Source: Myxococcales bacterium (GTDB lineage Bacteria > Myxococcota_A > Polyangia > Polyangiales > Houyiibacteriaceae). From it: a stretch of DNA of 38,505 bases. Below, one piece after another: positions 29,231 through 31,717 of this stretch. Each line of letters opens with the position of its first letter. The stretch's first letter is position 1. Both the position numbers and the translations under genes were made by a program. Location of the stretch: assembly GCA_012744445.1 (NCBI GenBank), contig JAAYBZ010000213.1:1-38505 (forward strand). Reading direction: 5' to 3'. Below the pieces are notes generated by a model, which searched no databases, was not told the origin of the DNA, and was given only the letters and a program-made list of their open reading frames with translations.

Positions 29231-30109
29231 TCAGCGCTCGAGGCGCGCGATGATGCGGTCGAGCTCGTCGAGATCGGACCAGGGGATCTCGAGCACGCCC
29301 TTGCCGCCGCCGCGCTCCTCGACGCGCACCTCGAAGCCGATGGCGAGGCTGAGGCGCCGCTCGAGGTCGAGCACGTTGGGGCTCTTCTTCTTGGGCTCGG
29401 CGGGCGCGCCCTTCTTCCCGCTCCCGCCTTCGTCGCGCGCACGTCGCTCGACCTCGCGGACCGTGAGCTTCTTCGCCACGGCCTCGCGCGCGAGCTTGAT
29501 CTGGAGCTCGGGTGATTTGGCCTGGAGCACCGCGCGGCCGTGCCCCTCGCTGAGCGCGCCGTCTTCGAGGAGGTCGAGCACGGCCTCGGGGAGCTCGAGG
29601 AGACGCATGGAGTTGGCCACGGCGGAGCGGCTCTTGCCGATCTTAACGGCGATGGCATCGGCCGAGAGCCCGAACTCGTCGCGGAGCCGCTTGAAGGCGC
29701 GCGCCGTCTCGATGGGGTTGAGGTCCTCGCGCTGGAGGTTCTCGACGAGCGCGGCCTCGAAGGCCGACTCGTCGCTGAGCTCGCGGACGAAGATGGGCAC
29801 CTCGAAGAGGCCCGCCTTCTGCGCGGCGCGCCAGCGGCGCTCGCCGGCGATGATCTCGTAGCCGCCGGCCGGGCGCTTGCGGACGAGGATGGGCTCGAGC
29901 ACGCCGTGGGCGCGGATGCTCTCGGCGAGCTCGTCGAGCGCCTCTTCGTCGAAGCGCTTGCGCGGCTGTACCTGGCTCCGATGGAGCTGCTCGATGCGCG
30001 CGACCGTGATCGGTCGCTCGGCCGAGGGGGCGGAGGAGGGGGGCGCCGGAGGCAGGAGACCGTCGAGACCGCGCCCGAGGCGGCGCTTTGAAGCCTGTTC
30101 CTTGCTCAT
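29231..30109 (-). CDS. parB: Chromosome partitioning protein ParB (Spo0J)
   Basis: A 292-aa CTP-dependent DNA clamp that loads at parS. The N-terminus has the ParA-stimulating LGRGLDGLL motif (11-19). The CTPase fold carries GERRWRA (89-95) and ENLQREDLNPIE (123-134). A helix-turn-helix lies around 147-170 (LSADAIAVKIGKSRSAVAN), then a Lys-rich linker and a C-terminal dimer domain from about 245. Start ATG 30109 follows the parA stop by six bases with AAGG upstream. I saw no consensus parS near it. Confidence 0.96.
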   Translation of the reverse strand: MSKEQASKRRLGRGLDGLLPPAPPSSAPSAERPITVARIEQLHRSQVQPRKRFDEEALDELAESIRAHGVLEPILVRKRPAGGYEIIAGERRWRAAQKAGLFEVPIFVRELSDESAFEAALVENLQREDLNPIETARAFKRLRDEFGLSADAIAVKIGKSRSAVANSMRLLELPEAVLDLLEDGALSEGHGRAVLQAKSPELQIKLAREAVAKKLTVREVERRARDEGGSGKKGAPAEPKKKSPNVLDLERRLSLAIGFEVRVEERGGGKGVLEIPWSDLDELDRIIARLER

Positions 30110-30115
30110 TTCGCC

Positions 30116-30889
30116 TTACGCGGCCTCGAGCCCGTCGAGGAGCTCTCGTGCGAAATTCAGGTATCCCGACGAGCCGCGAGAGGAGGCATCGTACAGCACC
30201 ACGGGCTTGCCATACGAGGGGGCCTCGGCGAGGCGCACGTTCCGCGGGATGATCGTCTCGTAGACGTGGAAGTGGCGTCGCACCTCGTCGGCGACCTCGT
30301 TGGCGAGGTTGTTCCGCGGGTCGAACATGGTGAGGAGGACCCCGTGGATCGAGAGGCCGGGGTTGAGGGAGTGCTTCACGCGGTCGATGGTGTCGACGAG
30401 CTGGCTCAAGCCTTCGAGCGCGTAGTACTCGCACTGGAGGGGGACCACGACGAAGTCCGAGGCGACGAGCGCGTTGATGGTGAGCGTCCCGAGGGAAGGG
30501 GGGCAGTCGAGCACGATGAAGTCGTACCGATCTCGCACCTCCGCGATGGCCTGCTTGAGCTTCTGGGGCGCATCCGGCTCGTCGATGAGCTCGCGCTCGA
30601 TGGCCACGAGGTCGGGTGTGGCCGGCACGATGTCGAGCCCGGGGAGCTCGGTCGGGTGCGCGAGCTCGGTGACGCTCGCCTGCCCGAGGAGGAGTTGATA
30701 GCTGCCGCGGTCGACGGAACGGGGCGAGATGCCGAGCCCCGTGGTCGCGTTCGACTGCGGATCGAGATCGATCACGAGCACACGCTGCTCGGCGACGACG
30801 AGACTCGCGGACAGGTTGACCGCGGTCGTGGTTTTACCCACGCCACCCTTCTGGTTGGCAACGGCGACGACTCGACCCATTCGCGCCAT
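30116..30889 (-). CDS. parA: Chromosome partitioning ATPase ParA (Soj)
   Basis: A 257-aa deviant-Walker ATPase that positions ParB-parS complexes. The P-loop is KGGVGKTTT (14-22), with LVIDLDPQSNATTGLG as Walker A' and FIVLDCPPSLG as Walker B. Start 30889 gives MARMGRVV; the second ATG at 30880 gives the commoner MGRVVAVANQKGG start, so the true start may be either. Its order with parB is the usual chromosomal one, although the gidA/gidB neighbours typical of an origin region are not in this window. Confidence 0.96.
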   Translation of the reverse strand: MARMGRVVAVANQKGGVGKTTTAVNLSASLVVAEQRVLVIDLDPQSNATTGLGISPRSVDRGSYQLLLGQASVTELAHPTELPGLDIVPATPDLVAIERELIDEPDAPQKLKQAIAEVRDRYDFIVLDCPPSLGTLTINALVASDFVVVPLQCEYYALEGLSQLVDTIDRVKHSLNPGLSIHGVLLTMFDPRNNLANEVADEVRRHFHVYETIIPRNVRLAEAPSYGKPVVLYDASSRGSSGYLNFARELLDGLEAA

Positions 30890-30985
30890 CGTCTACCAGC
30901 GGAGCCGATCTCGATCAACGGCGAATCGCTCCTCGGGGCGGCGCGCACGGGGAAGCGAGGGCGCGACATCGTGTTTGCACATTTT

Positions 30986-31015
30986 TTGGCGTCCGTGATC
31001 GAGCCGGCGTAGGGT
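30986..31015 (+). promoter_or_regulatory. Possible promoter for the 60-aa acidic protein gene
   Basis: TTGGCG (30986-30991) and TAGGGT (31010-31015) are 18 nt apart in the 190-bp gap between divergent parA and the small gene. The T-run just before the -35 is one of few AT-rich spots here. The rest of the gap (30890-31079) holds no gene that I can support. Confidence 0.3.
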
Positions 31016-31079
31016 ATGCGCAGATGTAGGACGAAGTGGTTGACGAGAGCACTTTGTCCCAGCTCGTGAGGAGAAGCCG

Positions 31080-31262
31080 ATGTCGAACTTTGGACCCGCC
31101 TATGGATACCGCAATCTCGAGGAGTTCGAGCGCGAGGTGCTCCGCTCCGGCAAGAAGGCAGGCTGGTCTCTCGACGACCTCTACAGCGAGGCGAGCTTCA
31201 ACCCCGGCCGCGACGACTCCTTCGGCGGCGACGGCGACGAGCTCGACTTCGACTTCGGCTGA
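31080..31262 (+). CDS. Small acidic protein of unknown function (60 aa)
   Basis: ATG 31080 has a strong AGGAGA site about 6 nt upstream. The protein starts MSNFGPAYGYRNLEEFERE, has a basic patch RSGKKAGWSLDDLY, and ends in a Gly/Asp/Phe-rich acidic tail DELDFDFG. There are no cysteines, signal or membrane segment. The strong ribosome site, GC-rich codon use matching the neighbours, and the intrinsic terminator about 140 nt downstream support a real gene. I do not recognise the family. It stands alone between divergent parA and a structured 3' region that may be part of its transcript. Confidence 0.7.
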   Translation: MSNFGPAYGYRNLEEFEREVLRSGKKAGWSLDDLYSEASFNPGRDDSFGGDGDELDFDFG

Positions 31263-31278
31263 GGTTGCGCTGTCACAC

Positions 31279-31434
31279 CCCTGATCAAAACTTCAGGGAG
31301 CTACCGAACTTCCTCCCGGTAGCGCCCTAGGAAGCGGCGGGTCGCCCCCCAACGCTTCCATGGAGGCCGAGGGTCGCCCCCCAACGCCTCCAACCACCCG
31401 AGGCCTCACGGTTCGCCCCCGTGAGGTCTTTTTT
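31279..31434 (+). ncRNA. Structured 3' region: array of five stem-loops (candidate sRNA or 3' UTR element)
   Basis: Five consecutive inverted repeats run from just after the 60-aa gene to the terminator. They are: CCCTGA/TCAGGG (31279-31298); GCTACCG/CGGTAGC (31300-31323); GGAAGC/GCTTCC (31330-31359); GGAGGC/GCCTCC (31362-31391); and the terminator stem at 31404-31426. The third and fourth have loops of 18 nt that share GGGTCGCCCCCCAAC. Their stems differ by one base pair, with both sides changed (A-T to G-C), which indicates selection on pairing. I do not recognise a known RNA family. It could be a processed sRNA, a stabilising 3' UTR, or a protein-binding element. Confidence 0.55.
31404..31434 (+). 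terminator. Strong intrinsic terminator
   Basis: An 8-bp perfect stem, CCTCACGG (31404-31411) with CCGTGAGG (31419-31426), encloses a short loop and is followed by TCTTTTTT (31427-31434). It ends the transcript of the 60-aa gene and stem-loop array. Confidence 0.9.
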
Positions 31435-31440
31435 AATGCG

Positions 31441-31470
31441 AAAAGGCCGGGCGAAACCTCGCTCCGGCCT
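31441..31470 (-). terminator. Intrinsic terminator for the 74-aa membrane protein gene
   Basis: AGGCCGG (31444-31450) pairs with CCGGCCT (31464-31470). On the minus strand the stem is followed by TTTTCGC. It lies 22 nt past the stop of the minus-strand gene, back to back with the plus-strand terminator. Confidence 0.65.
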
Positions 31471-31492
31471 CTCGAGACGCGATGCGCGCCGT

Positions 31493-31717
31493 TCAGCGGT
31501 TGGGCGCGGTCGTGTCGAGGTAGTGGATGAGCGGGACCTCACCCTCGAAGGTGGGGCCGATCTTGCGCCAAGCCGCCGACCAGAGGATGAGGAGGGCAAT
31601 CCCGAGGGAGACCGCGCAGAGCGCGATGAGGCGCGGGCCGGTCCAGCGCGCGTCACGCTCCGCGACGAGCTTCGCCTCTTCCTCGGTCATCGGGACGTTG
31701 TTGTAGGTCTCCGGCAT
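31493..31717 (-). CDS. Small single-pass membrane protein (74 aa)
   Basis: ATG 31717 has AAGGTG about 5 nt upstream and a good promoter further up. A charged N-terminal helix (TEEEAKLVAERDARW, about residues 11-25) precedes one membrane segment (about 29-48, RLIALCAVSLGIALLILWSA) and a short C-terminal tail. No family is recognised. Promoter, ribosome site and terminator are all visible, so it appears to be an independent single-gene unit. Confidence 0.75.
   Translation of the reverse strand: MPETYNNVPMTEEEAKLVAERDARWTGPRLIALCAVSLGIALLILWSAAWRKIGPTFEGEVPLIHYLDTTAPNR

Follow-up and report, generated by a model that had tools for sequence, protein, structure and literature searches.

A Polyangiales gene for a small acidic protein is followed by hairpins with constant C-rich loops, a candidate regulatory RNA of cuckoo-like layout

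The window analysed here, a stretch of 38,505 nucleotides from a 94%-complete assembly of 236 contigs, contains a gene for an acidic protein of 60 amino acids on the forward strand (31080-31262). Chromosomal parA (30116-30889, reverse strand) and parB (29231-30109, reverse strand) are divergent to this adjoining gene, the three together occupying 29231-31262, and a gene for a 74-aa protein converges on it from the other side (31493-31717, reverse strand). The pattern used for ParS sites has no match in the window. Wherever the upstream DNA of relatives was read, parA likewise starts 5' of the 60-aa gene, which looks like conserved synteny (in what follows, G numbers denote relatives' genomes, L numbers loci, f1-f9 kin families and g2 a kin genus). 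A likely promoter, TTGGCG and TAGGGT separated by 18 nt, can be read by eye on the forward strand at 30986-31015; a consensus promoter scan did not have this pair among its listed candidates, and a TTGcca/TAGGGT pair with a spacing of 16-18 nt recurs 5' of many 60-aa homologues. The upstream DNA of the relatives also defines a conserved leader element, GATGTAGGACGAAGTGG, at 31023-31039 on the forward strand (consensus GATGTAGGACAAxGTGG), which is present 5' of nearly all homologues of the family, including those not followed by hairpins. In the leader of this genome (31023-31059), GGACGAAGTG can pair with CACTTTGTCC, and the element is nearly invariant across relatives. Pairing of the hairpin loops described below with the gene's own leader was also considered (RNAduplex, best value -10.8 kcal/mol at the Shine-Dalgarno site) and was discounted, since any anti-Shine-Dalgarno loop gives such a value.

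Homologues of the 60-aa protein were found in 91 of 97 relatives at E<=1, and a profile search recovered the protein in 43 genomes of the order, gave weak matches in 5 further genomes of the class and had none in the sampled genomes elsewhere in the phylum. Named records with the gene belong to Polyangiaceae, Labilithrix, Sandaracinaceae/Sandaracinus and other myxobacterial MAGs. Homologues and named records thus bear out the myxobacterial origin presumed in the first-pass annotation. The family, as aligned from its homologues (alignment A6), shares the motif YRSxEEFEREExRPxxKxGxSLDDLxxEA, with F or W before SLDDL, and an acidic tail; its pI is about 4.1-4.6, and 4.1 for the protein of the window. 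Neither the Pfam nor the NCBIfam models matched the family, and the predicted structure of the 60-aa protein was too uncertain for use (pLDDT 65, pTM 0.23). The gene is found all across Polyangiales, an order of myxobacteria from soil and water, and the DNA 3' of it often encodes the same kind of RNA.

In the minimum-energy fold of 31260-31450, the DNA following the gene gives an array of five separate hairpins (31279-31434, all on the forward strand), the last of which is an intrinsic terminator; the energy is -83.5 kcal/mol, against -65.95 +/- 4.6 for shuffled sequences (z -3.8, 0/200 shuffles as good). Hairpin 1 (31279-31298, CCCTGA/TCAGGG) has no counterpart recognised in the relatives. 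SL-A (31300-31323) exposes an anti-Shine-Dalgarno-like loop, AACUUCCUCC(C), and both the CCUCCC loop and covarying pairs are found for it among the relatives. SL-B is present in two copies, at 31330-31359 and 31362-31391, which form a direct repeat of 87% identity and carry the hexaloop UCGCCC at 31342-31347 and 31374-31379, respectively; copy 1 has the further support of covariation. SL-C (31400-31434, hairpin 31400-31430), located by a terminator scan and by the paired stem of the relatives, has the loop UUCGCCC and is followed by T6. The first-pass annotation had described five inverted repeats ending at a terminator, and these coincide with the five hairpins of the fold. It had also described the two SL-B repeats as hairpins with equal 18-nt loops: the repeat itself is real, whereas the 18-nt loops are closed internally by GGG/CCC, so that the true apical loop is the hexaloop UCGCCC. 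Between the outer 6-bp stems of the two copies we recovered the single difference that it had reported, an A-U to G-C change compensated on both sides; beyond these stems, the seventh pair is G-C in copy 1 and C.C in copy 2. Three UCGCCC hairpins are observed in the array, and the maximum in 5000 dinucleotide shuffles was one. The repeated loop is only partly anti-Shine-Dalgarno, the CCUCC core being confined to SL-A. On the reverse strand, at 31444-31475 and adjoining the terminator of the RNA, the terminator-like hairpin of the 74-aa gene (GGCCGG...CCGGCC, TTTT) also holds UUUCGCCC.

In the relatives the stop codon is followed by SL-A with its CCUCCC loop, by SL-B with the UCGCCC hexaloop, often on a longer and interrupted stem, and by the SL-C terminator with the same hexaloop. 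The stems are almost wholly different from relative to relative yet still paired, and the loops are constant. For SL-C, 176/176 cells of the 11-bp stem are paired in 16 genomes, with double changes at 10/11 pairs, and only 38-51% pair when one strand is shifted in a slide control; some of the terminator pairing would be kept simply for transcription termination. The inner stems of SL-B are 86% paired, with double changes at all five pairs. When the three hairpins are taken together, 94.1% of cells are paired and 20 of 22 pairs show double changes (61% paired in shuffles, at most 46% in slides), and the covariation score is 0.83 vs 0.21 in shuffles; the rows were aligned by their loops and padded with N because stems and linkers are too divergent for automatic alignment, and in the R1 alignment, anchored by hand on the loops, covariation therefore leans towards structure. 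From the full stretch, MAFFT/RNAalifold retrieved nothing beyond the terminator and a portion of SL-A. Two lines of evidence are independent of the hand anchoring, namely the slide control and a motif-blind hairpin search, in which UCGCCC occupied the strongest hairpin 3' of nearly every homologue having a strong one (f1, f3, f4, f6, f8).

A covariance model (R1) matched 18 of 184 genomes of the order, at exactly one locus each, and in 18/18 this locus lies 11-166 nt downstream of a 60-aa homologue on the same strand. Matches were obtained in 5 genomes outside the training set (G012, G015, G016, G040 and G044); the match in the window, itself a member of that set, scores 50.1 bits (31335-31432, forward strand). 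Among 284 genomes spread over the phylum, R1 gave 8 matches, all within the order and none outside it, in scans run under Infernal's strict filters, so that absence is weaker evidence here than presence. As a control, hairpins of at least 6 bp were collected from both strands of about 0.65 Mb drawn from this genome and G009; of about 4040, one had an exact UCGCCC hexaloop, and none of the T-tailed hairpins outside the locus had it, which rules out UCGCCC as a general terminator loop in the DNA surveyed.

The terminator loop reads UCGCCC in f1, f3, f4, f6 and f8, ACGCCC in f9, and (U)CGCCUC in f7 and in genomes of the Labilithrix/Polyangiaceae type, where a CCUCCC hairpin can precede it. In g2 (about 20 genomes), G005 and G010 the gene and its upstream element are kept and the RNA was not found; the RNA is therefore dispensable in some lineages. 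A whole genus (G002, G013, G017-G026, G029, G030, G032 and G033; loci L025-L044) has a very strong GGGAGGGG ribosome site on the 60-aa gene and is without the hairpin RNA, and in several of its members the gene almost directly abuts a convergent gene. The opposite tendency, multiplication, is also seen. In G044, from a kin genus shared with a MAG named Sandaracinus, the entire SL-A/SL-B/SL-C module is present in two copies, whose SL-C hairpins differ by a compensated change from G-C to A-U and whose SL-B hairpins differ by another compensated change, and G059 has one partial and one full unit; compensated duplication is therefore a repeated behaviour of the element. At L050/L084 in G012, the DNA 3' of the 60-aa gene repeats a complete terminator-type hairpin with a UUCGCCC loop in tandem, in no fewer than four copies of 40 nt.

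To judge by these comparisons, the constant loops and the stems that change in matched pairs mark a previously undescribed candidate regulatory RNA. That the array is a functional RNA had been suggested from the window alone, and the suggestion gains from the fold (z -3.8), the covarying stems, the constant loops and the linkage to the gene in 18/18 genomes; the check proposed with it, on the conservation of the gene and the covariation of the DNA downstream, found the 60-aa gene conserved and the stems covarying strongly. Further, we consider it likely, at odds of roughly two to one, that 31300-31434 constitutes a small RNA borne on a 3' UTR, cuckoo-like in its several hairpins with C-rich loops, which pairs in trans with initiation regions without Hfq. 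Hfq was absent in 38/38 relatives, the control genomes being positive, and this accords with reports for myxobacteria (PMC5684412, PMC5568312). The RNA probably pairs with the start sites of other messages. The 60-aa gene would be transcribed as one mRNA from the promoter near 31015, starting at about 31020 and ending at about 31434, and from it a short RNA may arise, the stable hairpin part being either released or protected. The C-rich loops that it exposes would then offer several redundant seeds for pairing in trans with the G-rich regions where translation of other mRNAs begins. SL-A would recognise sites of the GGAGG type, and SL-B and SL-C sites of the GGGCGA type, and translation of the paired mRNAs would be lowered independently of Hfq. 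Each transcript would gain seeds when a hairpin is duplicated, as in the window, or when the whole module is, as in the Sandaracinus-like genomes.

Known RNAs offer parallels for such loops. The mycobacterial 6C/B11 RNA represses by pairing its redundant C-rich hairpin loops with ribosome-binding sites (PMC10470900); the array likewise consists of hairpins with C-rich loops, whereas 6C/B11 has cytosine runs rather than UCGCCC, has two loops and belongs to Actinobacteria, and the Rfam scans reported no 6C match. In RepG of Helicobacter pylori it is the terminator hairpin whose C/U-rich loop holds the seed (PMC8295292); this RNA differs from the array in sequence, in having no such gene linkage and in not being multiplied. 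From B11/6C and RepG it follows that C-rich loops, that of the terminator included, can be a pairing seed (PMC10470900, PMC8295292).

The main rival to pairing in trans is recognition of the hexaloop by a protein, in which case the constant hexaloop would be a site for an RNA-binding protein or a ribonuclease, and the hairpins would act in cis on how stable the 60-aa mRNA is or on how it is processed, or would titrate the protein. We regard this as unlikely, at about one chance in five. A constant loop on variable stems could be recognised by a protein just as well as by a complementary RNA, UCGCCC falls short of a perfect anti-Shine-Dalgarno sequence, the RNA has one and the same gene as its neighbour in every carrier, and Hfq is absent; however, the loop of SL-A differs and is complementary to ribosome sites, the terminator loops of other families, CGCCUC and ACGCCC, are easier to see as members of a group of C-rich seeds than as a single rigid protein site, and the lineages without the RNA keep the gene.

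We hold it quite improbable that the array is no more than an ordinary strong terminator accompanied by mRNA-stabilising 3' hairpins, without function in trans. GC-rich 3' hairpins often stabilise mRNAs. The last hairpin is indeed a canonical terminator, and a terminator stem alone would give compensatory change. A plain terminator, however, needs no constant loop, yet UCGCCC persists through changes at nearly all stem positions, recurs in the upstream SL-B and was missing from the other terminator-like hairpins in the genomes sampled. A role in termination alone leaves the constant loops and the SL-B copies unaccounted for.

Returning to the small RNA with pairing loops, we compared it with the CcsR/cuckoo RNAs of Alphaproteobacteria, a resemblance to which had been noted at first reading with no claim of homology. 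The resemblance holds: Rfam gave no match in the window at the gathering threshold, and below it ar14 (RF02344), a cuckoo-type family, was the best of 4227 Rfam families for the array stretch, with 33.2 bits in the window and 46.4 bits (E 1.7e-5, full length) in the sister genome G001. The ar14/cuckoo RNAs consist of about three hairpins, whose loops are all CCUCCUCCC and whose stems diverge (PMC10746234, PMC3927594); the loops of NfeR1/ar14 in Sinorhizobium silence ntrB at its ribosome-binding site independently of Hfq (PMC10746234); and CcsR1-4 of Rhodobacter sphaeroides (CIN1 locus) are cut from the 3' part of the mRNA of ccaF1, whose product is a DUF1127 protein (PMC10253847). Like ar14/cuckoo RNAs, the array is a row of several hairpins that vary greatly in their stems but not in their C-rich loops, with the terminator last; like CcsR, it stands directly 3' of a small-protein gene (adjacent in all 18 genomes with an R1 match) and has tandemly multiplied units (SL-B in the window, the modules of G044 and G059). 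Common layout and best score notwithstanding, true homology with the ar14/cuckoo family, by inheritance or transfer, appears very doubtful to us. The gathering score of 58.8 bits was exceeded in 0/97 genomes of the order, so the curated cut-off is not reached, and unrelated matches are similarly weak (a tandem repeat in G039 and a Thermus control). Unlike ar14/cuckoo RNAs, with CCUCCUCCC in each loop, the array has CCUCC(C) in SL-A only and UCGCCC in SL-B and SL-C; unlike the partner of CcsR, its acidic protein is unrelated to DUF1127, which was absent in 38/38 relatives and gave no Pfam match to the 60-aa protein; and unlike these RNAs it belongs to Myxococcota. Because loop motif and curated score fail and DUF1127 is absent, we file the array as working like a cuckoo RNA and not as a member of that family. 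Among other ar14 matches in the order, that in G039 is a tandem repeat (L149, G039:C369:3645-3758) of the unit GCGTAAGCGAGCGCCTGACGCCTCCCAATAGGCGC, which forms hairpins that have CCUCCC in the loop, and that in G019 looks like chance. A further one, in G072, a genome of Polyangiales without a match to the 60-aa profile, lies at L151 (G072:C42:19929-20025), where a hairpin with a perfect UCCUCCUCCC loop runs into a T-rich tail in the manner of a true cuckoo terminator. Chance inverted repeats or a dispersed repeat element, conceivable in that GC-rich genomes have many chance hairpins, can practically be set aside, this reading being already refuted by the comparative data: a single copy per carrier genome, a fixed place after one gene, covarying stems, and more than one such hairpin in 0/5000 shuffles.

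A small RNA of another kind has been described in myxobacteria. Pxr of Myxococcus xanthus and its kin, a group without Hfq, has three stem-loops (PMC5684412), and it has been reported only in Cystobacterineae, beside a two-component system (PMC5568312, PMC5684412). By these descriptions the array is set apart from Pxr, which is conserved as sequence, whereas the array has constant loops and free stems; its neighbours are parA/parB and the 74-aa gene, in contrast to pxrR/pxrK at pxr.

We are evenly divided on the widest form of our reading, that the trans-pairing RNA represents a new order-wide Polyangiales small RNA family accompanying an undescribed small acidic protein, with the CGCC(U)C terminator loop as its trans seed without Hfq, and that the cuckoo-type architecture is independent in Myxococcota. 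To our knowledge, very few small RNAs have been characterised in myxobacteria, which are without Hfq. The RNA described here, tied to one gene, bearing redundant constant loops and occurring in a genus that includes cultured members, offers a directly testable case of RNA regulation among them. Moreover, the array suggests that the layout of a small-protein gene, tandem hairpins with C-rich loops and a terminator has been reached outside Alphaproteobacteria with other loop and protein sequences.
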